The notes below the pieces were generated by a model. That model saw only the letters and a program-made list of their open reading frames with translations. It had not been told where the DNA came from and searched no databases. Positions 3 to 12,306 of a stretch of DNA of 21,315 nt are shown one piece after another. Position numbers and translations under genes: made by a program. This DNA comes from a virus, in IMG/VR virus record IMGVR_UViG_3300017776_000248, positions 1 to 21,315 of that record. The stretch is one strand, 5' to 3'. Position 1 is the stretch's first letter. Each line of letters starts with the position of its first letter.

Positions 3-269
3 ACTGCACAAATAAATGAAAGTTTTGGAATGTCTAGTTTGTCTGATACTGGTGCAGGGTTATACGTTTTAACAGTATCGTCAGCTATGAGTTCTAGTGA
101 TTACACTGTTGTTTTGCACGGTATTAGTGACGTAAGCTATCCAGCGCACGTTGGCTCTTACGATACAAGCAGAACAACAACAACATTTCCTGTAAATAGC
201 AGTAACAGTGGAAGTGCGTGGGCAGATGTTTCTACCTTAGATGCTGTAATATTCGGAGACCTCGCATAA
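3..269 (+). CDS. Tail-appendage protein, C-terminal fragment
   Basis: The reading frame is open from the left edge of the window, so the gene is cut at its 5' end; an internal Met lies at 30 but nothing marks it as the start. The visible 88 residues are rich in Ser, Thr and Gly and contain the pattern 'SLSDTGAGLYVLTVSSAMSSSDYTV', which is matched in layout by the two following genes (Ser-x-x-Asp-x-Gly-x-Gly-x-Tyr ... Met/Phe-Ser-x-x-x-Tyr). It ends in Gly-Asp-Leu-Ala, like its two neighbours. The stop codon overlaps the next start as TAATG. I infer a beta-rich tail-fibre or tail-tip domain; the N-terminal module seen in the following genes would lie outside the window. No enzymatic motif is visible. 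Confidence 0.7.
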   Translation, partial: TAQINESFGMSSLSDTGAGLYVLTVSSAMSSSDYTVVLHGISDVSYPAHVGSYDTSRTTTTFPVNSSNSGSAWADVSTLDAVIFGDLA

Positions 270-273
270 TGGC
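254..273 (+). repeat. Conserved gene-junction repeat, copy 1
   Basis: The sequence cggagacctcgcataatggc spans the end of the partial gene and the start of the next. It contains GGAGA, the codons for Gly-Asp-Leu-Ala, the stop TAA and the overlapping ATG. Confidence 0.85.
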
Positions 274-652
274 TAGTATCCTGAAGGTAGATGAACTGCG
301 GGGGATTGCATCGGCTGGTGACATTACAGTTACTAGCGAAGGCGGCGCGGCTACACAGTCACTTCAGCAGGGGTTGGCGAAGGCGTGGGTTCAACTAATT
401 GGAACTGGAACTGTTTCAACTTTAGATAGTTTCAATAATTCGAGCATCAGCGATTTATCACAAGGAAGATATCAAACTAATTTTTCTAATAGCATGAATA
501 ATGATGACTACGCTGTGACTGCTTCTGACACATTTCAAACATCAGGATATTATAGCTCAACAACTTCAAGTCATAATATTTTTTGTAACGGTGCGGTTTC
601 AACCCCAGTTGATAGCACTGTTTCAGCAACAGTACACGGAGACCTCGCATAA
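269..652 (+). CDS. Short tail-appendage protein, shared N-module (127 aa)
   Basis: The start at 269 is chosen over an in-frame ATG at 218 because it gives the shared N-terminus Met-Ala-Ser-Ile-Leu-Lys-Val-Asp-Glu-Leu and because it forms a TAATG overlap with the preceding stop, with GGAGA 9 nt upstream. Residues 1-28 are the N-terminal module also found at 652, 1780, 2303 and 2786. The rest is a Ser/Thr/Asn-rich segment with 'SISDLSQGRYQTNFSNSM', the same type of domain as in the flanking genes, ending in His-Gly-Asp-Leu-Ala. Such short proteins are usually tail-tip or fibre parts of phages; I infer that the N-module attaches to the virion and the C-terminal domain faces the host. No catalytic residues are recognisable. 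Confidence 0.75.
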   Translation: MASILKVDELRGIASAGDITVTSEGGAATQSLQQGLAKAWVQLIGTGTVSTLDSFNNSSISDLSQGRYQTNFSNSMNNDDYAVTASDTFQTSGYYSSTTSSHNIFCNGAVSTPVDSTVSATVHGDLA

Positions 653-656
653 TGGC
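637..656 (+). repeat. Conserved gene-junction repeat, copy 2
   Basis: All 20 bases are identical to copy 1. The match with copy 3 continues upstream over about 15 more bases, with a few substitutions. Confidence 0.85.
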
Positions 657-1044
657 AAGCGAACTGAGAGTCACCACCATTGCCAATAATGCAGGCACCG
701 AGTCTGTCGATACTACCTATGTGATTAATGGTAGTGCGAAGACGTATTCTCTTTGGAATATGGGAAGTTTATCTGGCACTGGTGGCACAACGGGTATTGA
801 TACATCGCTTAACGTGTCCTCTATGGATGATGATGGTGCAGGAGATTTCGGTATCAATTTTACCAACAGTTTTTCTTCTGTAAATTATACGGCTACGTCT
901 GCAACTAGCAGTGGTTCAAGAAGGGTTCTTACAAGAAACGGCACAGTAACAGCGTCTGCTATGGATGGTTTGACAAGAAATGACTCCAATTCAAACTCAG
1001 ATGCTGCGGCTTGTTCAGTAACAATGCACGGAGACCTCGCCTAA
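652..1044 (+). CDS. Short tail-appendage protein, shared N-module (130 aa)
   Basis: It starts on the A of the preceding TAA (TAATG at 650-654), preceded by GGAGA. The N-terminus Met-Ala-Ser-Glu-Leu-Arg-Val is a divergent copy of the shared module: the Leu and Val positions are kept but the Ile-Leu pair is Glu-Leu. The C-terminal domain carries 'SMDDDGAGDFGINFTNSF', aligning with 'SISDLSQGRYQTNFSNSM' of the upstream gene, and again ends His-Gly-Asp-Leu-Ala. The two proteins therefore look like paralogues produced by tandem duplication. A role as an alternative or successive tail-tip subunit is inferred from context. Confidence 0.75.
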   Translation: MASELRVTTIANNAGTESVDTTYVINGSAKTYSLWNMGSLSGTGGTTGIDTSLNVSSMDDDGAGDFGINFTNSFSSVNYTATSATSSGSRRVLTRNGTVTASAMDGLTRNDSNSNSDAAACSVTMHGDLA

Positions 1045-1048
1045 TGGC
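1029..1048 (+). repeat. Conserved gene-junction repeat, copy 3
   Basis: 19 of 20 bases match copies 1 and 2 (C instead of A at 1041). It connects to a gene without the shared N-module, so the junction is conserved independently of the protein that follows it. Confidence 0.8.
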
Positions 1049-1772
1049 TTACATAGGTATAGATCCAAATGTAGGTGACATTACGTTCCAGAGGTTCACT
1101 GGGGACGGGTCTACTACTGTGTATACACTGGCGCAGAATGTAGCCAGCGGCGAAGCTATACTTGTGACCGTGGGCAACGTGGTTCAGGAACCGGGAGCCA
1201 GCGCTTCATACACGGCCTACGCGAACACACTGACCTTTTCTGAGGCACCAGCTAACACTGATGAGATCGTTGTACGCTTCTTTGGTCGCGCCGTTGACCA
1301 GCCCCTGTCTTATGCAATGCAGGTATATAAGTACATTGCAACAGCTAGTCAGACAGTATTTACCGGGGCGGACAACGCAGGCGCTATCTTGGCGTTTAGT
1401 GGCAACGATGTAGATGTGTATCTAAATGGTATTCATCTGGATACGGTAGACTATACACCAAGCAGCGGCACCACGATTACTTTAGCCAGCGGCGCAGCGC
1501 TCAATGATGAGATTGTCATTCGCGCATTCCGCGCATTTACTGTGACAGACACAGTGAGCAAGGCCAGCGGCGGTACGTTTGTTGGTGAGATAACCGCGCC
1601 GCAGTTTCAGACTACTAACACTACTGTTGATACGGCTGTGTTTCGTACTAATAACCAGACGGTGGATGAGAATACCACTATTGGCTCAACCAAAAATGCT
1701 TTGGCTATTGGGCCGCTAACCATTGATTCCTCGACCAGCATTACGGTTGATGGCAACTTGACGATACTGTGA
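1044..1772 (+). CDS. Phage structural protein with two beta repeats (242 aa)
   Basis: An in-frame ATG at 1011 is rejected because the TAATG overlap at 1042-1046 with its upstream GGAGA gives the natural start Met-Ala-Tyr-Ile-Gly. Residues about 9-75 ('DITFQRFTGDGSTTVYTL' ... 'VVQEPG' ... 'LTFSEAP' ... 'IVVRFFG') and about 85-165 ('TVFTGAD' ... 'VDVYLNGIHL' ... 'ITLASGAALNDEIVIRAF') are two copies of a beta-sandwich-like unit often seen in marine-phage tail fibres, where each copy ends in Asp-Glu-Ile-Val-x-Arg. The last 60 residues (Thr/Asn-rich, 'GPLTIDSSTSITVDGNLTIL') resemble a trimeric fibre stem. It does not carry the N-module of its neighbours, so it may be the scaffold to which the short proteins attach; that is inference. 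Confidence 0.8.
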   Translation: MAYIGIDPNVGDITFQRFTGDGSTTVYTLAQNVASGEAILVTVGNVVQEPGASASYTAYANTLTFSEAPANTDEIVVRFFGRAVDQPLSYAMQVYKYIATASQTVFTGADNAGAILAFSGNDVDVYLNGIHLDTVDYTPSSGTTITLASGAALNDEIVIRAFRAFTVTDTVSKASGGTFVGEITAPQFQTTNTTVDTAVFRTNNQTVDENTTIGSTKNALAIGPLTIDSSTSITVDGNLTIL

Positions 1773-1779
1773 GGCGCAG

Positions 1780-2298
1780 ATGGCTTCGATATTAAATGTA
1801 GACCAAATTAACAATGCGGCAGGCACAAGTGCGCTGTCGTTTAGTAGCGCTGGAATTGTAACGCCCTCTAATCCAGTGTTATTTCATATTTACATGAACG
1901 CTAATACTGGTCTTGCCGACAACACAGGTACTGTTCTTCCATTGCAAGCGGCAGAATACGCTACTCACTCATTTCACGACACAACAAACAATCGCATCAC
2001 TGTTCCAAGTGGACACAGCGGTTATTTGTTTTTGAGTTGGAACGTCAGAATTGACACTATCAATGGCGATAACAATGCCGCTTATTTGCGAAAGAACGGC
2101 AGTGTAATCGTTGAACAAAACAAATATTACACCAGTGCCGCCGCTGAAAGCATTTCATTTGCTGGGTCGAGAGTAGTGTCATACACCGCTGGTGACTACT
2201 TTGATCTCTACTGTTTTCAAGATAACCCAACTAGCTCAACGAGAAATGCAATCGCTGGTGCGGGGAACACTTTTATTAGTGGTTTCAAAATAGGATAA
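1780..2298 (+). CDS. C1q-like tail protein with shared N-module (172 aa)
   Basis: Residues 1-28 (Met-Ala-Ser-Ile-Leu-Asn-Val-Asp-Gln-Ile ... Ala-Gly-Ile-Val) are the shared module. The remaining roughly 140 residues follow the C1q/TNF jelly-roll layout used by many phage and bacterial C1q-like proteins: 'ITVPSGHSGYLFLSWNVRI', then 'AAYLRKNGSVI', then 'VVSYTAGDYFDLYCFQD', and a final 'GNTFISGFKIG' strand. C1q-like domains form trimers and bind proteins or glycans, so a receptor-binding tip is a reasonable inference. The gene begins 7 nt after the previous stop with a weak Shine-Dalgarno (GAGGCGCAG). Confidence 0.8.
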   Translation: MASILNVDQINNAAGTSALSFSSAGIVTPSNPVLFHIYMNANTGLADNTGTVLPLQAAEYATHSFHDTTNNRITVPSGHSGYLFLSWNVRIDTINGDNNAAYLRKNGSVIVEQNKYYTSAAAESISFAGSRVVSYTAGDYFDLYCFQDNPTSSTRNAIAGAGNTFISGFKIG

Positions 2299-2302
2299 CG
2301 AT

Positions 2303-2782
2303 ATGAGTACCCTTTATGTAGACAACATATACAGCAAGACGGGAACCGCGCAGGCGCTGACGATTGATAGCAGTGGGCGTATCTTTACACCACAAAGACC
2401 CGCTTTTTACATTAGGAAAACAGGCACCACCTACACCTATGGTACAAGTCCTATACCTTGGGATGATGTTGTTTTCGACACTGCCAATGCTTGGAACAGT
2501 TCAAGTTACCGATATGAATGTCCAGTAGCAGGGTTGTACTGGGTAAACATTTCGGTACACAACACGACAAATCAAATAACTAGCGCATTTGTCAGAAAAA
2601 GTGGGGGAAACTATCTTTTTGGTTTCAATGCAAATACAGCAGGTAACACGGAAGGAAACCTTGTCATTAGCGCCCTCATGGAATGTACCGCCAGCGATTA
2701 CATAGACGCTGTAGGGGACCGTTCAACATCGGCAGGATTTTTCGGCGGTTTGTCTGCAATGCAAGTTATGTTTATGGGGTAA
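2303..2782 (+). CDS. C1q-like tail protein with shared N-module (159 aa)
   Basis: The N-module reads Met-Ser-Thr-Leu-Tyr-Val-Asp-Asn-Ile ... Ala-Leu-Thr-Ile-Asp-Ser-Ser-Gly-Arg-Ile. The C-terminal part is a second, divergent C1q-like jelly roll: 'YRYECPVAGLYWVNISVH', 'SAFVRKSGGNYLFG', 'CTASDYIDAVGD', then 'GGLSAMQVMFMG' as the terminal strand. It follows the other C1q-like gene after 4 nt. The two differ greatly outside the core positions, so they may recognise different ligands or form a hetero-oligomer; both options are inference. No unusual composition was noted. Confidence 0.8.
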   Translation: MSTLYVDNIYSKTGTAQALTIDSSGRIFTPQRPAFYIRKTGTTYTYGTSPIPWDDVVFDTANAWNSSSYRYECPVAGLYWVNISVHNTTNQITSAFVRKSGGNYLFGFNANTAGNTEGNLVISALMECTASDYIDAVGDRSTSAGFFGGLSAMQVMFMG

Positions 2783-2785
2783 TGT

Positions 2786-3202
2786 ATGACCAGCATCTTA
2801 AAAGTCAGTGAGATCCAAGATCCAACAAACAGCAACACCGCGCTGACGATTGCATCAGATGGTACAGTTACGCTGCCACAGAATGACAGTGGTTGGATAA
2901 CTGCAACGCTAAACTCACCGTACACACACTTTGGCAGTCCGTATGGAGATGTTCAGTACAGGAAAATCGGTGACATTGTGAACATCCAAGGTTTGGTAAA
3001 TATAAACAATGCGTCTAACGGAAGCACAATCTTCACGCTTCCGTCTGGTTACAGACCCTCACTTCGACTTGTATTTGCACAAGCAAACGCAAACACCGAT
3101 ATCACAAGAATTGATATTCTTACAGACGGTGATGTAAATGCACAAGCCATAACGAACAGCGCAAGTTGGGTAACTCTTACTATGACATTCATGGTTGCGT
3201 AG
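2786..3202 (+). CDS. Tail-appendage protein with shared N-module (138 aa)
   Basis: The N-module is Met-Thr-Ser-Ile-Leu-Lys-Val-Ser-Glu-Ile ... Ala-Leu-Thr-Ile-Ala-Ser-Asp-Gly-Thr-Val-Thr-Leu-Pro. After a short linker the domain reads 'VQYRKIGDIVNIQGLVNI', 'STIFTLPSGYRPSLRLVF' and a final 'SWVTLTMTFMVA'. The 'YRK-x-GD-x-V ... LPSGYRP' pattern is common at the C-terminus of phage fibre and baseplate proteins and is thought to be a small beta-sandwich. It is the last of the N-module genes. Spacing to the previous stop is 3 nt and to the next start 11 nt. Confidence 0.8.
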   Translation: MTSILKVSEIQDPTNSNTALTIASDGTVTLPQNDSGWITATLNSPYTHFGSPYGDVQYRKIGDIVNIQGLVNINNASNGSTIFTLPSGYRPSLRLVFAQANANTDITRIDILTDGDVNAQAITNSASWVTLTMTFMVA

Positions 3203-3213
3203 AGGTTAATGAT

Positions 3214-4335
3214 ATGAGCAGAGCGAGAGACATAGCCGACTTAGGTGGTAGCACAGATGCTGGTGGCATTACTGGCAGGAACCTGATTATCAATGGGGCG
3301 ATGCAGGTGGCACAGCGCTCGACAAGCGCTACTGGCGTAGCAGGTTACATAGCCGTTGATAGGTTTCGTTGTACTGGGAGTGCTGATGCTGTTGACCAAT
3401 TATCATTAACTCACGCACAGGTTGCAGATGCGCCAGATGGTTTTGCTAATTCCTATAAAATAACTGTCTCAACGCCAGAAACAACTTTAGCCGCTGATGA
3501 GATGATACGAATAGAACAGCGCATGGAAAGTCAAAACCTACAGCATCTAAAAAAGGGTACATCAAGTGCAGAGGCAGTGACTTTATCTTTTTGGATTAAG
3601 GGTTCGGAAACTGGAACATATATCGTAAATCTGCATGACACTGATAACACCCGCACTATCGCCGCAAGTTACACAATAAACGCCGCAAATACTTGGGAGT
3701 ATAAAACTATTACCTTTGCTGGCGATACAACTGGTGTGTTAGATAACGACAACGCGCAAAGCCTAAGTTTATATTGGTATCTTGGGGCTGGAACAAATTG
3801 GACTAGCGGTACACTAGGTACATCTTGGGCTGCATTTACTAAAGCAAATGTTGCTGTAGGACAAACGGACATTCTTACAACTAGCAGTGCAACTTGGCAA
3901 ATCACAGGCGTCCAGCTAGAAGTCGGCGAGACAGCCACGCCGTTTGAACACCGTAGCTATGGCGAAGAACTGGCGTTGTGTCAGCGGTATTTTCAAGCGT
4001 TTAAAACAGGTCGTGTAAACACAAGTCTCGTTTCCATTGCTTCATCAACAAGTCAAGCCGTTATTAATATGCCTTTGCAAGTGGAGCCGAGAGTTTTAGC
4101 AAGCTATGATGGTGCTTTGGCATCTGGAACTTTTACAAAAACAGGAACCGTTGCTGTAAATGCGTTTCCTTCAAACGGTGACAATGTAACCAGTATTCCT
4201 TTTTGGGTATGTAACTCGACTGAAATAACTGTAGCTTTAAACACTTCAACTACGCTTGTTCAATATAATGGATATGCCACTAGAATTGGCGGAAGTGCTG
4301 GTGAAACTGTATTTACTTTGGATGTTGAGCTATGA
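3214..4335 (+). CDS. Tail protein, carbohydrate-binding-like domain (373 aa)
   Basis: Start 3214 is chosen over the in-frame ATG at 3166, which would lie inside the previous gene; AGAGG sits 8 nt upstream. The N-terminal 'RDIADLGG' and 'NLIINGAMQVAQRSTS' followed by 'VDRFR' are hallmarks of a widespread phage tail-protein family. Residues roughly 60-235 hold a beta-sandwich that looks like a carbohydrate-binding module ('ESQNLQHLKKGTSSAEAVTL', 'SFWIKGSETGTY', 'TWEYKTITFAGDTTGVLDND', 'ITGVQLEVGETATPFEHRSY'). The motif 'GEELALCQRYFQ' then leads into a roughly 120-residue C-terminal beta domain, the more variable part in this family. I infer glycan recognition at the host surface. The stop overlaps the next start (ATGA). 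Confidence 0.8.
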   Translation: MSRARDIADLGGSTDAGGITGRNLIINGAMQVAQRSTSATGVAGYIAVDRFRCTGSADAVDQLSLTHAQVADAPDGFANSYKITVSTPETTLAADEMIRIEQRMESQNLQHLKKGTSSAEAVTLSFWIKGSETGTYIVNLHDTDNTRTIAASYTINAANTWEYKTITFAGDTTGVLDNDNAQSLSLYWYLGAGTNWTSGTLGTSWAAFTKANVAVGQTDILTTSSATWQITGVQLEVGETATPFEHRSYGEELALCQRYFQAFKTGRVNTSLVSIASSTSQAVINMPLQVEPRVLASYDGALASGTFTKTGTVAVNAFPSNGDNVTSIPFWVCNSTEITVALNTSTTLVQYNGYATRIGGSAGETVFTLDVEL

Positions 4336-4511
4336 CGATTGTAAAAGTTAAAAGAATATCTTCCGAAGATGGTTCTACTGGAAGTCCTGTTAATGTAACG
4401 TATAGCAACGGGGACCTTGCTTGTTTTAATTTAGTTGAAGGACATCCTATGTACGACACAATTATGGAACAGGTAGAAGCTGGCGAACTGACCATAGCGG
4501 ATGCTGACTGA
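4332..4511 (+). CDS. Small coupled phage protein (59 aa)
   Basis: The ATG at 4332 overlaps the preceding TGA (ATGA), and its TGA at 4509 overlaps the next ATG (TGATG), so it is coupled at both ends, which is strong evidence for a real short gene. The protein starts Met-Thr-Ile-Val-Lys-Val-Lys-Arg-Ile and ends in an acidic helix ('EQVEAGELTIADAD'). There is no signal peptide, membrane segment or recognised motif. Its position between two tail genes suggests a small accessory or chaperone-like tail protein; function is unknown. Confidence 0.7.
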   Translation: MTIVKVKRISSEDGSTGSPVNVTYSNGDLACFNLVEGHPMYDTIMEQVEAGELTIADAD

Positions 4512-5236
4512 TGCTAGGCGCGGTTGCCATATCAGAACGAGGTATATCGGATCAGGGGGTCTTGCTCTCTGCATCTGAAACCGCGTCTGCTAACTTTATT
4601 AAATCAAATGCAGCTAATCTAACAGTAGTTGGTTCTGCTGACATTGAAGCGATAGCTACAAAGACAACTATTGGTGTTGGTATTCTTGTTGGCATCATGG
4701 AGTCATCGACTGTCTTTACACAGACCACAGTGCCTACACGGTTTGCTACAGGTGTATCAGCAAGCGTAACAAGCTTTGATCAAACGACAACACCGCTTAC
4801 TGTATTTAACGGTGTGTCAGAGCAGTCGGCTAACTTTACGCAAGAGACCGAAGGTTTACGTTTTGCCACAGGTGTGTCTGAGCAGTCGGCTAACTTTACA
4901 CAAACAACGTCTGAAAACATTGTGCGTGTTCTTCTGTCTAATCAAACAGCAGAGTTTACGCAAAGCTCTACTGGGAGTATAGTGCAGCTTGCCGAAGCAG
5001 ATATTATAGCCACCTTTACGCAAATTGCTTCTGGTGGATTTGTTAAGCTTCTTGAATCGGAAGTGTCTGCTGTATTCATACAAACAACAGACGGAAGATT
5101 GTACTGGGATGATTGGGCGCAATCGCCTAATAACTCACCATCTGAAACGTGGGTTCAAATCGTGCCAACAGGCGGGACATGGACAGAAATCAACGCAGGT
5201 GGTACAGTAGAGACTTGGACACAAAAGGTGGTTTAA
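4511..5236 (+). CDS. Tail protein built of nine 20-residue repeats (241 aa)
   Basis: Residues 22-202 divide into nine consecutive repeats of 20 residues (the second has 21). The best copies read Ser-x-x-x-Ala-x-Phe-Thr-Gln-x-Thr ... Gly-Val, with repeats starting at residues 22, 42, 63, 83, 103, 123, 143, 163 and 183. Repeats five and six are nearly identical in their first half. Such regular Phe-Thr-Gln repeats with one turn per 20 residues suggest a beta-solenoid or a fibre of stacked hairpins; this is inference. The last 39 residues are Trp-rich ('TWVQIVPTGGTWTEI', 'ETWTQKVV'), a layout seen at the ends of other phage structural proteins. The start overlaps the preceding stop as TGATG. Confidence 0.75.
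   Translation: MLGAVAISERGISDQGVLLSASETASANFIKSNAANLTVVGSADIEAIATKTTIGVGILVGIMESSTVFTQTTVPTRFATGVSASVTSFDQTTTPLTVFNGVSEQSANFTQETEGLRFATGVSEQSANFTQTTSENIVRVLLSNQTAEFTQSSTGSIVQLAEADIIATFTQIASGGFVKLLESEVSAVFIQTTDGRLYWDDWAQSPNNSPSETWVQIVPTGGTWTEINAGGTVETWTQKVV
4574..5116 (+). repeat. 60-bp coding tandem repeat, nine units
   Basis: The 20-residue protein repeats give a 60-bp period in the DNA. Most units have diverged, but 4811-4843 and 4871-4903 match at 31 of 33 positions, exactly 60 bp apart, pointing to a recent unit duplication or gene conversion. Confidence 0.75.
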
Positions 5237-6424
5237 ATGGCGTCTACCTACACAGATAATACAGGTATTGAAAAACCGGGACCGGGTGAACAGTCGGGTA
5301 CTTGGGGTACTACAACCAATACAAACTTTGATCTTATTGATCGGAGTTTAAATGGTGTTGGTAATATTACATTAACAGGCACATCGCATACTTTATCAAC
5401 TTCTGATGGTTCTTTATCAGACGGTCACTACCGTGTGCTTGTCTTGGGCGGCACACCTACTGGTACAAACACAATTAGCATTACACCTACCGACCAAGAA
5501 AAAGTGTATCTTGTATACAACAACTCTGGTCAGTCTGTTGTATTTACACAAGGTTCTGGTGGCAACGCGACTATTACAAATGGCGCGACTGCTTGGATTT
5601 ACGCTGATGGTGGCGGCGCGACTGCTAAAGTACGCGCTGTTCCTTCAGATGTTGTAGACGACACCAGCCCACAGCTTGGCGGTAACTTGGATGTAAACGG
5701 TAACTCAATCGTGTCTGCTAGCGACGGGGATATTGCCATTACACCAGACGGCACAGGCGATGTGATTATTGACGGGATTAAGCACCCACAAGCTGATGGT
5801 AACGCAGGTGAGTTCCTAAAGACAGATGGCTCTGGTCAATTAAGTTTTGCTGATGTAGCAGCGTCTGCTTTTAATTCCGGCATGTTAGCTCCCTATGCTG
5901 GCGCTACAGCGCCTACGGGTTGGCTGCTTTGTCATGGTCAGGCAATAAGTCGTACAACATATGCCGATTTATATGCTGTCGTTGGAACAACATACGGCGC
6001 TGGAGACGGGGCAACTACATTCAATGTTCCAGATCTTCGTGGTCGTGTTATCGCCGGTAAAGACGATATGGGCGGCTCATCTGCTAACCGTCTTACATCT
6101 GCTTTGAATGGTGATAATCTTGGCGCAGCAGGTGGTGCAGAAAGCCACACGTTATCAACTTCACAAATACCGGCGCACAGACACTTTGTTGCGGCTAACG
6201 TAGCGCTAGGAAGTGCCTCATCCAGTGTTGCGGCGGTTACTTCTACAACTCAGGTCGCAAGGCAGTATCAGTCTCCTTATGGTGCCGGGGGAGAGATATT
6301 TAGTATGTCAATGGTTCGGACGGGCACAGACGCTTCAGTTGGTCGCTCTAGCTCTGTGGGTAGCGGTAATTCACACAACAACACCCAGCCTACATTTATT
6401 CTGACCTATATTATTAAAACATAG
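5237..6424 (+). CDS. Tail fibre with phage tail-collar domain (395 aa)
   Basis: The N-terminus ('GIEKPGPGEQSGTWGTTTNT', then Asn-Phe-Asp-Leu-Ile-Asp) is a common virion-attachment segment of marine-phage fibres. The middle (about 140-205) contains 'DDTSPQLGGNLDVNGNSI' and 'ITPDGTGDVII', a repeat-like fibre shaft. Residues about 215-275 form a phage tail-collar domain (PF07484 type): 'APYAGATAPTGWLLCHGQAI', 'TTFNVPDLRGRVIAG'. The C-terminal part ('SHTLSTSQIPAHRHFV' to 'NTQPTFILTYIIKT') is the usual extension after the collar, with the His-x-His region that binds metal in some fibre tips. The start has AGGTGG 5-6 nt upstream and immediately follows the previous stop. Confidence 0.9.
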   Translation: MASTYTDNTGIEKPGPGEQSGTWGTTTNTNFDLIDRSLNGVGNITLTGTSHTLSTSDGSLSDGHYRVLVLGGTPTGTNTISITPTDQEKVYLVYNNSGQSVVFTQGSGGNATITNGATAWIYADGGGATAKVRAVPSDVVDDTSPQLGGNLDVNGNSIVSASDGDIAITPDGTGDVIIDGIKHPQADGNAGEFLKTDGSGQLSFADVAASAFNSGMLAPYAGATAPTGWLLCHGQAISRTTYADLYAVVGTTYGAGDGATTFNVPDLRGRVIAGKDDMGGSSANRLTSALNGDNLGAAGGAESHTLSTSQIPAHRHFVAANVALGSASSSVAAVTSTTQVARQYQSPYGAGGEIFSMSMVRTGTDASVGRSSSVGSGNSHNNTQPTFILTYIIKT

Positions 6425-6432
6425 GTGGTTAT

Positions 6433-8310
6433 ATGCCGCTAACAAAACTACAGTTTCGCCCCGGCATCAACCGAGACATTACTTCGTACTCCAATGAAGG
6501 CGGTTGGCGTGATGGTGACAAAATAAGATTCCGCCTTGGCTATCCTGAAAAGATTGGTGGCTGGCAAAAGTTTTCAGAAGCTACTTACTTAGGGTCGGCT
6601 CGTGCGCTTCATAACTGGATCGCGTTAGACGGTTCTAACTTTCTAGGTGTTGGCACACACCTTAAATACTATGTTGAAGAAGGCACGTCTTTTAACGACA
6701 TCACACCTATCCGCCAAACAACAGCCGCAGGTGATTTAACTTTTGCAGCTACGACGGGTAGCGCAACAATAACTGTGACAGACACAAGCCACGGATGCCA
6801 GCAGTTTGACTTTGTGACCATATCTGGAGCAGTTAGTTTAGGCGGGGACATCACGGCGGCAATTCTAAACTCCGAGCATCAAATTACTCGCGTTATTGAC
6901 GCAGATGATTACGAGATAACTGTGTCAACTCCTGCTTTGGGGACAGACACAGGCAATGGCGGTTCCTCTGCTGTTGGCGCGTACCAAATTAATGTAGGCT
7001 TGAACAACACAGTTGGCGGAACAGGTTGGGGCGCAGGTACTTATGGACGTGGCGGTTGGGGCGCTGCGGCTCCCGGTGGTTTGACCACAACAAACAAAAT
7101 TCGTTTGTGGTCGCATGACAATTTTGGTGAAGATCTTCTTATCAACCCACGCGACTCGTTTATTTATTACTGGGACAAGTCAAGTGGCGTTAGTTCAAGA
7201 GCCGTGGAACTGTCCACATTGTCCGGCACAAAAACATCTGTTCCTACCGCATGCAAGCAGGTAATGGTATCAGACCGAGATCGTCACGTTTTGGCATTTG
7301 GTTGTGATGGCATCAACTCAAGTTCATCAGCAACGCAGGGTGATGGCGTACAAGATCCGCTGCTTATTCGGTTCTCGGATCAAGAAGACCCACTGATTTG
7401 GTATCCATCCGCAACCAACACTGCGGGTGACTTGCGCCTCGGTTCTGGATCTACGTTTGTACGAGCCATTGAAACAAAACGTGAGATTCTGGTATGGACA
7501 GACACAGCGCTGACTTCACTACGGTTCATTGGACCGCCCTTTACATTTGGCCTGCAACAGCTTGCTAATAACATCACGATCATTGGCCCAAATGCTGCTG
7601 TGGCTACAGAAGACTTTGTATTCTGGATGGGGCTAGATAACTTCTACGTCTATGCGGGTCAGACAGCACAGCTACCTTGTACTGTAAAAGACAAAGTGTT
7701 TGGCGACATTAACTTGGCTGAATTTGATAAAGTGTACGGCGCTGTTAACAGTGAGTTTGGTGAGGTGTTTTGGCTATACCCATCTGCCGATTCAACTGAA
7801 AATAACAGATATGTGATATATAATTACATCGACAAAATTTGGTATTTTGGAACCATTGAAAGAACGGCTTGGCTGGATCGTGGAACACGAGACTTTCCTA
7901 TCGCTGCGTATGATGGCCTGCTATACAACCATGAGTTTGGCTATGATGACGATGGCGAAGCAATGGAATCTTTTATTGAATCAGCCGCTATAGACATAGG
8001 AGATGGCGATCACTTCGTGTACATAAGAAGAGTAATACCTGATCTTACATTTACTGGCTCAACTAATATTAGTTCGCCGCAAGCTACGTTTACTGTCAAA
8101 GCCCGCAACTTCCCGGGTGAAGACTTTGGCAATACGGCATCGGGCACAACGTCAAGAACAGCTATTAGTCCTGTTGAAGAGTTTACAAACCAACTAGACC
8201 TTCGTGTTCGTGGTCGTTCTTTTGCGCTTCGCGTGGAGTCTGACGCATTAGAGTCAAAGTGGAAGCTAGGCAGCCCCCGTGTGGATATAAGACAAGATGG
8301 TAGGCGTTAA
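6433..8310 (+). CDS. Conserved virion protein, possible tail stabiliser/hub (625 aa)
   Basis: It opens with 'LQFRPGINRDITSYSNEGGW' and then 'KIRFRLGYPEKIGGW', a start typical of a large conserved structural protein of marine short-tailed phages. Residues roughly 100-180 form an inserted Thr/Gly-rich beta domain; later blocks ('VMVSDRDRHVLAFG', 'DPLLIRFSDQEDPLIWYP', 'REILVWTDTALTSLRFIG', 'EDFVFWMGLDNFYVYAG') resemble successive blades of a beta-propeller. The final part ('RSFALRVESDALESKWKLGS') is a beta-sandwich end. The layout recalls the P22 gp10-type DNA-stabilisation/tail-hub family, but I cannot show homology by eye, so that name is tentative. AGGTGG precedes the start and the stop overlaps the next start (TAATG). 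Confidence 0.8.
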   Translation: MPLTKLQFRPGINRDITSYSNEGGWRDGDKIRFRLGYPEKIGGWQKFSEATYLGSARALHNWIALDGSNFLGVGTHLKYYVEEGTSFNDITPIRQTTAAGDLTFAATTGSATITVTDTSHGCQQFDFVTISGAVSLGGDITAAILNSEHQITRVIDADDYEITVSTPALGTDTGNGGSSAVGAYQINVGLNNTVGGTGWGAGTYGRGGWGAAAPGGLTTTNKIRLWSHDNFGEDLLINPRDSFIYYWDKSSGVSSRAVELSTLSGTKTSVPTACKQVMVSDRDRHVLAFGCDGINSSSSATQGDGVQDPLLIRFSDQEDPLIWYPSATNTAGDLRLGSGSTFVRAIETKREILVWTDTALTSLRFIGPPFTFGLQQLANNITIIGPNAAVATEDFVFWMGLDNFYVYAGQTAQLPCTVKDKVFGDINLAEFDKVYGAVNSEFGEVFWLYPSADSTENNRYVIYNYIDKIWYFGTIERTAWLDRGTRDFPIAAYDGLLYNHEFGYDDDGEAMESFIESAAIDIGDGDHFVYIRRVIPDLTFTGSTNISSPQATFTVKARNFPGEDFGNTASGTTSRTAISPVEEFTNQLDLRVRGRSFALRVESDALESKWKLGSPRVDIRQDGRR

Positions 8311-8587: not shown

Positions 8588-9400
8588 ATGGGACTTTTTG
8601 ACGATCTAGTAAAAACAGCTTTACCCATAGCGGCTGGAGCTTTTTTAGGGCCTGCGGCGAGTCCGTTATTTGCTGGTGCTACAGGATTTATGGCAAACCC
8701 CGCTGTGCAAAGCGCTTTATTGTCTGGTGGCATTGGCCTTCTTTCTGGTCAAAAGCCGAAAGATGCACTGAAATCAGCGCTCCTTGGTGGCATTGGTGGT
8801 TACGCTGGTCAAAAGTTCTCGGCCGCTGGAGCGCCTGCTACAACTGGCGGAAGTCCATATACCTCTTACAGTCAATTAAGCGGTAATCCTAGCGCTGGTT
8901 CAAAACCGTTTACGCCTCCAGCACCTCCTCCGTCAGTCAAGGGCATAGAGCCAAAAACAATGTCGGCAGAATTGCTAAAAGGCATTGGAATGTCTGGCGA
9001 CCCCGGGCAAGAAAATTTATTGTTTAAGATATTGAATACACAAGCTGGTGAAGGCTTGCTTGCTGGTCTTGGTGCATATGGATTAGATAAGTTGATGGGT
9101 GATGACGAAGAGGACGATAGAGGGTCTTTTGAGCGCCGTCCATACGGTGCTGGTGGCCCGGGTGGCAAGCTTGGCGGCATAACTTATGCTGAGTATGGCG
9201 GAGCCATGGGATTCCCTCCTCGTGATGGCGGCATTGACCCTAATGAGGGGTCTGGCAGATCAGATGATGTTCCAGCTATGCTGACCGCTGGAGAGTTTGT
9301 AATGACACGAGACGCCGTAAAGGGAGCGGGCAACGGCAATTTGCGTCAAGGCATAAACAATATGTACAATATGATGAGTCAGTTTGAGAGGATGGCGTAA
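8588..9400 (+). CDS. Internal virion protein, tape-measure-like C-motif (270 aa)
   Basis: Residues 8-65 are Gly/Ala/Leu-rich with closely spaced glycines ('LLSGGIGLLSGQ', 'LLGGIGGYAGQ'), a glycine-zipper pattern able to insert in or associate with membranes. A Pro-rich linker (about 110-118) follows, then an acidic stretch (Asp-Asp-Glu-Glu-Asp-Asp near 175). The end carries 'SDDVPAMLTAGEFVMTRDAV' and 'NNMYNMMSQFERMA'. The 'DDVPAML-x-x-GEFV' motif is widely seen in phage tape-measure and internal proteins. I infer an ejected internal protein that helps DNA cross the cell envelope; evidence for that is composition and neighbours. It is expressed from the promoter just upstream and coupled to the next gene (TAATG). 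Confidence 0.7.
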   Translation: MGLFDDLVKTALPIAAGAFLGPAASPLFAGATGFMANPAVQSALLSGGIGLLSGQKPKDALKSALLGGIGGYAGQKFSAAGAPATTGGSPYTSYSQLSGNPSAGSKPFTPPAPPPSVKGIEPKTMSAELLKGIGMSGDPGQENLLFKILNTQAGEGLLAGLGAYGLDKLMGDDEEDDRGSFERRPYGAGGPGGKLGGITYAEYGGAMGFPPRDGGIDPNEGSGRSDDVPAMLTAGEFVMTRDAVKGAGNGNLRQGINNMYNMMSQFERMA

Positions 9401-10293
9401 TGGCTACGCAAACGGTAGAAAACGTACAACGACTCGCACCATATCTTGAGGGTCTGGAAAAGCGTCTACTTGGCACTGCTTTTGGTGAATTTAGTGGCGC
9501 AACACAGACAAGCCCCGGGCTGCTTGATAAACCACTTGGTTTACCACAGTATCAGGTAGCTGGCCTTGACCCGCTTCAGCAACAAGCACTCGGCGCGGCA
9601 CCACAAATGTTTGGCTCATACCTGCCATTTACTATGGGCGCGGGTATGCAAGGACTTGCAGGCGCAAGTGCCTTACAGCAAGGCGTTGGAATGCTTGACC
9701 CAAGTCAAGGCATATCAGCATTTATGAACCCCTATCAATCAGCAGTAATTGACGAAATTAATCGTCAAGCGGCTACAGGGCAACAAAAACTAGGAGGTCA
9801 AGCTGTTAGAGCGGGTGCATTCGGTGGATCTCGCTTTGGTGTGCAATCAGCAGAGCAGGAAGGCCGCAGACTCGCCGCAGTTGGTGAGGCGCAACGCAAA
9901 GGCTTCCAAGATGCCGTTACGTCATCACAAAGGGCTGGTCAGTTGCTTGGCGGTCTTGGTCAGGCATATGGGCAACTAGCAGGCACCACAGCCGATATTG
10001 GGCGCGTACAGTCAGAGCTTGGTCGTGCCGATCTTGGCATGCTTACACAGCTTGGTGATATTGGTCGTACATATCAGCAACAGCTTCTGGAAGCAGAGCG
10101 TCAAAACCAGTTGCAAGCTGTACAAGAACCGTTTACTCGTTTAGAGATTGGTCAGTCGCTGCTAAAAGGATTGCCAAGCGGAGGCTTATCTAGCACATTC
10201 AAGTCTGCTACAACACCAGATGCGAACCCATTCTTGTCTGGCATTGGTGCATACACAGCTTTGCAGGGCATTAACCCAACTGGAAGCGCATAG
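9400..10293 (+). CDS. Phage virion protein, putative ejection component (297 aa)
   Basis: Gln-, Ala- and Gly-rich protein, predicted mostly helical. The middle block 'FMNPYQSAVIDEINRQAA' followed by 'AVRAGAFGGSRFGV' is a recognisable signature of a family encoded next to glycine-zipper internal proteins in marine phages. The helices after it ('EQEGRRLAAVGEAQRKG', 'QQLLEAERQNQLQAVQEPF') have coiled-coil character. There is no signal peptide or catalytic motif. TAATG coupling to the upstream gene and a 9-nt gap to the next put it in one operon with the other large internal proteins. Function as an internal or ejection protein is inferred. Confidence 0.7.
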   Translation: MATQTVENVQRLAPYLEGLEKRLLGTAFGEFSGATQTSPGLLDKPLGLPQYQVAGLDPLQQQALGAAPQMFGSYLPFTMGAGMQGLAGASALQQGVGMLDPSQGISAFMNPYQSAVIDEINRQAATGQQKLGGQAVRAGAFGGSRFGVQSAEQEGRRLAAVGEAQRKGFQDAVTSSQRAGQLLGGLGQAYGQLAGTTADIGRVQSELGRADLGMLTQLGDIGRTYQQQLLEAERQNQLQAVQEPFTRLEIGQSLLKGLPSGGLSSTFKSATTPDANPFLSGIGAYTALQGINPTGSA

Positions 10294-10302
10294 GGGTAAC
10301 TT

Positions 10303-12306
10303 ATGGCTCAACGTCCCGTACTACCATTAGGATCTGGCCTTGGTCAGATTAGAGCGCCATCACTGCAAGGTGATGCGAATGAAGCGGCTTTTATGAACCA
10401 AACAGGTGCGCTTCAAAAGCTTTTGGGGATGTACCCTACACAGGCAGAGGCAATTGCTGCTAGGGAAAGGGCGCAAGAAGGCATCGTTAGCATGTTGAAT
10501 CAAGTTGGTGGTGGGGCAACACAAAACGGTCAAGACCGTGGAGTTTATGGTCAAAGTCCAGAGCGCACTAGGGAGGCAGCGATAAATCGTCTTGAAAATA
10601 TCTTCAGAGGCGGAGGTTTTTTAAGACCCGAAAATCAAAAAGGAAAATCTGCTATTGCTGATTTGATTAGTAATGATCCAAGCATTTCTGAAATAGACAT
10701 TTTTAGCCCAGATGCAGCGGCAGGTATAGCTGGACAAAGAATGCCTTTGACTGGTGGAGGGGATCAGCCGGGAGACGCCACGTTTGGTGGACGCATACCT
10801 GAAGATGTAGATACTGGTGATGATGGTGATGTGACAATAGAAATGAGTCCGACCATTGATGATGACGTTGACGTAATAACAAGCGCAGACACAAGTACAG
10901 ACACAGGTACAGGTGTTAAAAGCGGAACTGGGGTCAGTCCATCTGCCGCTGGAGAAACAACCACTGGGACAGCGAAGAGTGAAACGCAAGACGGTTCTAC
11001 AGGTGCAGCAAAAACTAACGCATACGAACAATTGTTAGCATCTTCTTTACAGTCTTATAACGATGCCATAGGCCGCGCACCATCTGGTGCGAAGTCAATG
11101 GATGAGTACAAAAAAGAATTTTCTGAAGCTACTGGTATAGATATTTCTGGAGATCCTGACAATAAAGCCGCTCTAACAGCATTTGGCCTTGCGCTTATGC
11201 AGAATAAAGCAGGTAAAGGATTTAATGTAGGAAACATCTTGAGTGAAGTTGGTGCTGCTGGAGAAAAAGCGTTGCCACTCATGGAGGCCGCTAGAAAAGA
11301 AGCCAGAGCGGGTCAGCTTGCTGCTGGTCAATATGCCCTTTCAGAAGCTAAAACTGCCAATGCTGCAAGACAACAATTCTTGGTTGATCAATCGAATTAC
11401 CTTACTAAGCGGCGTGATACAATTCTTGACGCTGCCACAGTCAGAATGGAATCTATTGAAGATAGAGAAGATAAGCAGAGCGCGGCCATAGAGTTAGAAG
11501 CAATTAAATCTGGGTTTGATAGACAAATAAAATTATCTGAATTAGATTTGGAGGGGGCAAAAAAAGCTGCCGAAAACAAAGTTAAAACCACAGATACAAC
11601 AAAAATTACAGATCCTGCGTTGCAAGGTCTTGAAATAGTTATGGGTAATAGAGTCTCTGACGGCAGAGCTGTATTTAAGTTTCCTGCACAAAACGCTGCT
11701 TCATTTGGCACGGCTTTGGCTGATGTGCAAGAGGGTATAAGTGGTTTGGATGAAATTTCAAACAATATAAGAAAAGCGCAGCAAACTCCGGGCGGCACAA
11801 CAACTCAAAAAGCTCTTGAATTTGGTCAAGGGATTGCGGCTTCATTTGGATTTAATTTAAACGAGGAGCCGCAGTTTGACAAAGATGGCAACTTTACAGG
11901 AATGGCGGCAAAGCCAAAGCCTCTTACTGATGCGACTGTTATTCGTGACAGAATTATATCGCAGTTTAAACGCTTCTTGACTCAAGAGACTGGCAACGGG
12001 ATTTCTAATGTTGACATTAAAAACATTGAAAGATTACTTGGGAACGTGGATTTTCTCGGTGATCCAAACACAGCCTTAAAAAGAGTTGAAGAAGCAAAAA
12101 AGATATTCTTAGGGAAAAAAGATAAGTTGGTTACTTATCTTGACGGGTTCAGCGATAAAACAAGATACATAAACGATCAAGAATATTTAGATACTCGTGA
12201 ATCAATAGATCAAGCCATAGCACAATCATATAGCTTGGACTTTGGTGGCTTTCAAAAAATTACAGATGAAGATACAGGCTTAGAAGTCTACAAGATTGGC
12301 GGTTAA
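10303..12306 (+). CDS. Large helical virion protein, putative ejection component (667 aa)
   Basis: N-terminal residues 1-60 are Gln/Ala-rich ('ALQKLLGMYPTQAEAIAARE'). Residues about 165-245 form a low-complexity Asp/Thr/Gly linker ('TGDDGDVTIEM', 'SADTSTDTGTGVKSGTG'). From about 245 the chain is helical, with a coiled-coil stretch at about 350-430 ('MEAARKEARAGQL', 'RMESIEDREDKQSAAIELEA'), and the last 200 residues are a mixed domain ('IISQFKRFLTQETGNGISNV', 'SYSLDFGGFQKI'). No enzyme motif is evident. Composition and position between two other internal-type genes suggest a protein packaged with, or ejected before, the DNA. The acidic linker is unlike the rest of the gene. Confidence 0.7.
   Translation: MAQRPVLPLGSGLGQIRAPSLQGDANEAAFMNQTGALQKLLGMYPTQAEAIAARERAQEGIVSMLNQVGGGATQNGQDRGVYGQSPERTREAAINRLENIFRGGGFLRPENQKGKSAIADLISNDPSISEIDIFSPDAAAGIAGQRMPLTGGGDQPGDATFGGRIPEDVDTGDDGDVTIEMSPTIDDDVDVITSADTSTDTGTGVKSGTGVSPSAAGETTTGTAKSETQDGSTGAAKTNAYEQLLASSLQSYNDAIGRAPSGAKSMDEYKKEFSEATGIDISGDPDNKAALTAFGLALMQNKAGKGFNVGNILSEVGAAGEKALPLMEAARKEARAGQLAAGQYALSEAKTANAARQQFLVDQSNYLTKRRDTILDAATVRMESIEDREDKQSAAIELEAIKSGFDRQIKLSELDLEGAKKAAENKVKTTDTTKITDPALQGLEIVMGNRVSDGRAVFKFPAQNAASFGTALADVQEGISGLDEISNNIRKAQQTPGGTTTQKALEFGQGIAASFGFNLNEEPQFDKDGNFTGMAAKPKPLTDATVIRDRIISQFKRFLTQETGNGISNVDIKNIERLLGNVDFLGDPNTALKRVEEAKKIFLGKKDKLVTYLDGFSDKTRYINDQEYLDTRESIDQAIAQSYSLDFGGFQKITDEDTGLEVYKIGG

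Follow-up and report, generated by a model that had tools for sequence, protein, structure and literature searches.

Slot-specific N-terminal tags and exchangeable heads in a tail-fiber gene array of a marine phage-like virus

Results

Positions 1 to 21,315 of the IMG/VR virus record IMGVR_UViG_3300017776_000248 (hereafter, the window) carry at their left end an array of small genes that share a type of N terminus and differ in their C-terminal domains. From the left edge onward, the gene order is a truncated small fiber gene, two genes with a short conserved N-terminal segment (a tag), an untagged gene that we call D, three further tagged genes, a larger fiber gene, and then tail and virion genes. 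We refer to the tagged positions as slots A, B, and C before D, and E, F, and G after it (Table 1). The tagged proteins are 127 to 172 residues long, with heads of 100 to 150 residues. An earlier note on this DNA, made from the sequence alone, had described five genes with a common start of the form M-x-S-x-L-x-V-x-x-I...G. We confirmed the gene starts (269, 652, 1780, 2303, and 2786) and found the pattern at the N terminus of all five. The array extends beyond what the note had listed: a further member contributes its C-terminal part in the open frame at 3-269, and the 242-residue D gene, which has no tag, also belongs to the unit. The open frame matches a profile of GDLA-type heads (E 8e-18) and precedes slot B, as slot A does in four relatives (L005, L030, L247, and L256). 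The phage looks like a marine, bacterial, podovirus-like one, its short tail being suggested by tail and virion genes that include a collar-domain protein and a relative of nozzle proteins.

Relatives were retrieved with degenerate DNA patterns of the tags. Many loci were fetched by the G tag or by the GDLA junction described below, and the loci are akin by descent. The earlier note had proposed a profile search with the module alone, and this search bore out the observation: a hidden Markov model built from the five 30-residue modules gave 297 domain matches, against 4 in reversed open reading frames (ORFs) at an equal cutoff, among 13,721 ORFs from 201 related loci (2 Mb, window included). 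An iterated module profile matched the window copies with E values of 3e-9 to 2e-15, which are partly circular, as these copies were seeds. The five N-terminal modules are homologous.

The note had also assumed one common tag. Instead, each gene position has its own tag of ~14 residues, in an order that is constant across phages. In the relatives, the tags before D are MPSVLNVDTI or MASKLDVDEIA in slot A, MASILKVDELRG in slot B, and MASELRVTTIANN in slot C; those after D are MASILNVDQINN in slot E, MSTLYVDNIYSK or MSTLYVDTINEK in slot F, and MTSILKVSEIQDP in slot G. The first 14 residues of slot C are identical in six loci. Among 98 loci with at least two slots, we found no order violations and no repeated slots, and where the profile skipped slot F in loci with E and G, all cases listed had an F-type gene at that place. 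A slot-blind, unsupervised test placed 622 of 623 tag-pair instances in a single order. Within contigs, one of 728 tag pairs was at least 70% identical, compared with a mean of 57.6 and a minimum of 38 when tags were permuted among contigs (200 permutations). Single-linkage clustering of tags was set aside, as it merged slots B and C via intermediates and produced spurious “duplicates”; pairwise identity is the valid test.

Codon diversity in the tags is 0 to 0.11 at positions 1 and 2 and 0.23 to 0.48 at position 3. Because third positions vary while first and second positions hardly do, the constraint on the tags acts on the protein. A role of the tag as a translation signal only was rejected on the same grounds, third positions being free.

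In five relatives, the D protein is 95 to 97% identical, and the heads that flank it have an identity no higher, or hardly higher, than background. A D-tail profile matches the window D (E 6e-24, with the window sequence included in the profile), one half of D matches tail fibers of T7-like pelagiphages, and D-like domains occur inside the single-chain fibers of CRP-2, CRP-207, and Melnitz. D is, by these matches, a fiber protein. In a Rosetta stone test, none of the CRP-2, CRP-207, and Melnitz fibers with a D-like domain matched the C1q or GDLA head profiles.

Tagged genes occur in triads. In the long arrays of L247, L256, and L271, each triad stands behind a D-like gene, and the C termini of these genes are of one kind. 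Exactly three tagged genes were present in 104 of 128 complete segments among tag-selected loci and, where D was the sole selection criterion, in 80 of 83 complete loci (39 of 41 D242 loci and 41 of 42 HMO-2011-D loci). The unit is D plus three tagged genes, with one to three blocks per phage. Where the earlier note had expected arrays of variable length, the triad per D is fixed (80/83), and only the number of blocks differs. The linkers behind the tags are also tied to position. Across 169 GDLA blocks, counts at positions 1, 2, and 3 were 66, 0, and 0 for linker type 1; 1, 80, and 1 for type 2; and 0, 0, and 76 for type 3. Most blocks that seemed to have four tagged genes were triads followed, farther downstream, by an untagged MALT-type gene, or resulted from a false tag call. 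Six loci (L197, L180, L092, L097, L188, and L204, the last at 10789-11169) carry one more head gene directly before the second D, and its start (MALT... or similar) has no tag; the head and linker of this MALT-type gene resemble those of triad position 2.

Behind the tags, similarity within a slot collapses. Identity falls from mostly 0.7 to 1.0 over residues 1 to 10 to about 0.1 to 0.2 beyond residue 30 to 40, and the drop is also seen in loci picked by D alone. Across the window and five close relatives, six loci in all, identity over the first 14 residues is 71 to 100%, and most heads are at or near shuffled-sequence identity. Exchange of heads between slots and between phages is directly evidenced, at the level of sequence, by near-identical heads behind differing tags: slot F of L030 and slot G of L319 (99%), slot E of L291 and slot G of L303 (98.6%), and slot E of L309 and slot F of L252 (97%), with one 100% pair in a wider set. 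One head of the phage HMO-2011 is 91% identical to the slot B head of L229, and their tags differ. In L256, a GDLA-type head occupies slot E, and therefore head classes also cross. These cases of transfer between slots give direct support to the earlier suggestion that the C-terminal domains are interchangeable behind a constant module.

The edges of the exchanged segments are visible in DNA alignments. Identity starts in the linker (GCGCTGACGATTGATAGCAGTGG, which codes for ALTIDSSG, or its IPGH counterpart) and stops at the next start codon, so the exchanged cassette consists of linker, head, stop codon, spacer, and ATG. The 13-mer GCGCTGACGATTG within the linker has two copies in the window (0 expected), and the swap between slot F of L030 and slot G of L319 has its upstream boundary at this site. 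At the other end, the GDLA junction GGAGACCTCGCNTAATGGC has three exact copies in the window (0 expected). Its Gly codon is GGA in 272 of 279 cases, against a background of 22%, in a phase that yields GGAGA ahead of the overlapping start (TAATG or ATGA). Because this GGA is near-invariant and in phase, we infer that each GDLA head carries the ribosome-binding site for the next slot. Variation in the array consists of whole heads replaced with sharp boundaries. Diversity-generating retroelements act through a reverse transcriptase with a template and make adenine-directed changes in a variable region. No reverse transcriptase was found among the proteins in family scans, which covered part of the ORFs of a window that is itself a fragment.

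The three C-terminal domain types proposed in the earlier note are recovered by profile matches: GDLA-type heads (269 and 652), C1q-like heads (1780 and 2303), and a minor-tail-protein-type head (2786). The tail fiber profile phrog_11355 matches slots A, B, and C (E 2e-7, 6e-17, and 2e-9), and the GDLA-head profile matches slot B with E 2e-18; the latter profile gave no matches among solved-structure sequences. A model of the GDLA head from slot C was compared with tailspike C termini (best Z 7.8; Pam1, 70 residues at a root-mean-square deviation (rmsd) of 2.0; phiAB6, 89 residues at rmsd 2.8) and with SLL-2 (Z 5.9, in a borderline VIA-align list), and Foldseek returned no matches to it with E < 0.001. 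The predicted GDLA head has a borderline resemblance to tailspike C-terminal tips and H-type lectins.

Slot F matches Pfam C1q (PF00386) with E 2.7e-5, over the gathering cutoff, and its model (m07a565bb2a7b) matches the C1q domains of C1QL2 and cerebellin in Foldseek (E 1.5e-9, target TM score up to 0.86); the modeled head is a clear C1q/TNF jelly roll. Slot E has no Pfam match of its own, but a C1q-type head profile built without window rows matches it with E 5e-13. The A3 profile, which contains slots E and F, matches adiponectin (E 3e-42). Slot G matches phrog_13022 (E 2e-13) and the minor tail protein profile phrog_3639 (E 1e-11), and its head type recurs in slot G of L247 (80%) and L030 (57%).

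Table 1. Coordinates of the array, its exchange junctions, and neighboring genes in the window.
Feature	Position	Strand	Description
Window	21,315 bases		Linear IMG/VR virus record
Slot A gene, C-terminal part	3..269	+	88-residue open frame; tag beyond window edge; GDLA-type head
Junction copy 1	255..273	+	Head A end (GDLA stop) overlaps slot B start; GGAGA Shine-Dalgarno-like run, TAATG
Slot B	269..652	+	Tag MASILKVDELRG..., position-2 linker (SAGDITVTSEGGAAT..LQQGLAKAW), GDLA-type head
Junction copy 2	638..656	+	Head B end / slot C start
Slot C	652..1044	+	Tag MASELRVTTIANN..., position-3 linker (SVDTTYVINGSAK), GDLA-type head
Junction copy 3	1030..1048	+	Head C end / D start
D	1044..1772	+	242-residue fiber protein without tag; two repeated domains, shaft-like C terminus; first of block D-E-F-G
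Slot E	1780..2298	+	Tag MASILNVDQINNAAG, C1q-like head
Slot F	2303..2782	+	Tag MSTLYVDNIYSKTG, C1q head
Linker microhomology	2354..2366	+	GCGCTGACGATTG (codes for ALTI), behind tag F
Slot G	2786..3202	+	Tag MTSILKVSEIQDPTN, minor-tail/receptor-binding-type head
Linker microhomology	2840..2852	+	GCGCTGACGATTG, behind tag G
Untagged fiber gene closing array	3214..4335	+	NLIINGAMQVAQR type; phrog_4492 tail fiber, E 1e-62
Tail collar-domain protein	5237..6424	+	Pfam Collar, E 2e-25
Virion structural protein	6433..8310	+	P22 gp10-like (nozzle)/phage stabilization kin; phrog_3287, E 4e-70

The gene that closes the array has an equivalent position in L247 and HMO-2011. At 4511-5236, a 241-residue protein has short internal repeats (SEQSANFTQ, FATGVS, and FTQTT); it is 82 to 84% identical in two relatives and 38% identical in L030, and is possibly another virion protein of modular build. 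Relatives of the nozzle gene occur in pelagiphages, roseophages, and DSL-LC04, where they are annotated as phage stabilization proteins. Searches against solved-structure sequences with slot G, D, the 241-residue protein, and proteins upstream of the L256 array gave no credible match.

HMO-2011, a cultured phage of Puniceispirillum (SAR116), has an array of this kind at gp28-gp41: two D-like fiber genes, gp33 and gp41, occur with tagged genes that carry GDLA-type, C1q, and EIAG-type heads, and the array ends in the same fiber and small gene as in the window. The window shows the HMO-2011-type layout as D, the E/F/G triad, and the closing NLIINGAMQVAQR-type fiber. The HMO-2011 array differs in its two D blocks, whose middle position has a C1q or EIAG-type head, and in the tail-assembly chaperone genes (PF16778) that lie between tagged genes and blocks. 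Such chaperone domains lie between these genes in other relatives too; none was identified in the window. The HMO-2011 genes are annotated only as tail fiber, tail-related, or C1q-domain proteins, and neither its record nor the literature searched describes tags, triads, or head exchange.

After the first triad, many loci encode a conserved protein of 152 to 163 residues (..PEFQGTHLFDRLCWAKENL..; for example, L256 at 8851-9306 and L204 at 9925-10398), which has no family match above threshold and is accompanied by a tail-assembly-chaperone-like protein of 119 to 125 residues. The myovirus Melnitz-1 (L321, 8001-9942) has, beside neck genes, a D-like 115-residue gene flanked by tagged genes with C1q and EIAQ-type heads. 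As a myovirus thus has a small version of the array, the module has crossed tail types. The sole match to tag G in the genome collection is a 9,584-base contig (L324, PBPT01000031.1) in a Neomarinimicrobiota metagenome-assembled genome. The IMG/VR contig L209 also has 9,584 bases, which suggests a viral contig in a Neomarinimicrobiota bin.

Discussion

We read the locus as a receptor-binding apparatus of the plug-in kind: D and the three address tags would stay constant, and the heads would be cassettes open to exchange; we put the probability of this reading at about 0.68. The four-gene block would be its unit, with one constant fiber protein, D, and three small head proteins. The tag (~14 residues plus linker) would set which of three positions a head protein fills. 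These attachment positions are most likely on or beside the D fiber, each read by one tag, so that D would be the docking partner on the virion. The folded head behind the tag would be the receptor-binding tip for the host surface, and a particle might display several specificities at once. Recombination would swap heads among slots and phages. Its ends would lie in the linker on one side and at the following gene's start codon on the other, and every tag would thereby stay put. An incoming head would bring a stop codon of its own, together with a ribosome-binding site for the slot that follows.

The block might instead encode a split heterotrimeric fiber, whose three tagged chains are the three strands capping a D trimer, with three heads per fiber; the position-specific linkers would then mark three non-equivalent strands. 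Such a fiber would fit the presence of exactly three tagged genes per D, the restriction of three linker types to positions 1, 2, and 3, and the appearance of D as a headless fiber, given that D-like domains lie inside the single-chain fibers of relatives. However, the triad in the window mixes heads (C1q, C1q, and minor-tail type), whereas in solved structures of C1q-family heads the trimer is made of like domains, so that like-with-like pairing is expected, and in L345 and L385 one tagged gene follows D. We consider this arrangement doubtful, three separate homotrimers being the alternative. A virion with up to three fibers (nine or more heads), each with a homotrimeric D stalk and a three-chain tip, is likewise a tentative picture.

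Two further explanations dispense with an address function or with head transfer. Conserved 5′ ends might be inert scars, kept as recombination homology or as translation starts, with slot order reflecting common descent. Swap boundaries do fall at short shared DNA. Moreover, genes would be lost if like tags recombined with each other, and this loss alone could explain why tags are not duplicated. Yet third codon positions are free while the amino acids are held, tags stay distinct between slots over many phages, which would hinder rather than help homologous exchange between slots, and linker type is tied to position across separate blocks; we judge this account quite unlikely. Plain duplication and divergence, in which the genes are orthologs with fast-evolving C termini, could by itself account for the background or near-background identity of heads within a slot. 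It is contradicted by near-identical heads behind differing tags, by sharp DNA breakpoints, and by the GDLA-type head in slot E of L256, and is highly improbable.

Several findings weigh against the plug-in apparatus itself. L345 and L385 have a D242 gene followed by slot E only, without F and G, and therefore the triad is not strictly obligatory. (The slot E genes of these two loci are of the same kind, and one of the contigs is 59.5 kb long.) In the HMO-2011-kind roseophages CRP-2 (L325) and CRP-207 (L326), a single fiber of ~1000 residues, which carries a D-like domain, replaces the array of small genes. The earlier note had expected the module to share a predicted fold. Both AlphaFold2 monomer models give the tag as an extended segment of lower confidence (pLDDT about 60 to 76), and they give no support to a common tag fold. 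Finally, since the loci are interrelated, the counts given above are not counts of independent events.

Podophage tails of the GP4 type have several fiber types. Upstream of its array, L256 encodes homologues of GP4 fiber I (gp80; PF23140, Gp80) and of an SU10-type adaptor; like the chaperone domains between tagged genes in relatives, these neighbors favor a virion setting. We identified no counterpart of the tagged triad in GP4, and the fiber I homologue of L256 gave no sequence match to solved structures.

N-terminal docking with swapped C termini is itself a known principle. Phages CBA120 (TSP1-4) and RaK2 carry branched tailspike complexes with conserved N-terminal docking and variable C-terminal specificity, and thus several receptor-binding proteins per virion (PMC10253068). 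A conserved N-terminal segment with a variable, putatively receptor-binding C-terminal part also occurs here, a likeness of conservation pattern alone. In contrast, the tailspikes dock by folded T4 gp10-like domains and are large depolymerases that form homotrimers, while the window has slot-specific tags of ~14 residues and D-plus-three blocks; Pfam and PHROGs scans of the tagged proteins found no T4 gp10-like N-terminal domains or large depolymerase bodies. Tail fibers of extracellular contractile injection systems (eCIS) have eBAP anchors and C1q tips, with a conserved N-terminal anchor, swapped receptor-binding domains, and sometimes several fiber genes (PMC12923769). Unlike the short tags here, these anchors are folded baseplate-binding domains, and the fibers, which are longer and number at most five per locus, belong to contractile injection systems.

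In marine metaviromic islands, phage proteins with C1q domains are encoded near the tail fiber, and their N terminus recruits reads far better than the C1q head (PMC3909814). These genes were interpreted as serving host recognition, from two single pelagiphage genes examined (PMC3909814), and come without slot tags, triads, or transfer of heads between slots. In the literature searched, of which coverage was incomplete, we found no description of slot-specific mini-tags, fixed D triads, or heads that carry the next ribosome-binding site.

Little is known of how phages that infect abundant uncultured marine bacteria can switch hosts quickly and still assemble intact particles. In this locus, the constant addressing part and the exchangeable binding part are separate in the sequence, and the exchange junctions are visible. 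The counting rule of one D and three tagged heads predicts the make-up of the appendage. Gene sets annotated as “hypothetical” or “tail fiber” would thereby become a readable code, in which the tag gives the slot and the head gives the specificity. This reading is directly testable in the cultured phage HMO-2011.

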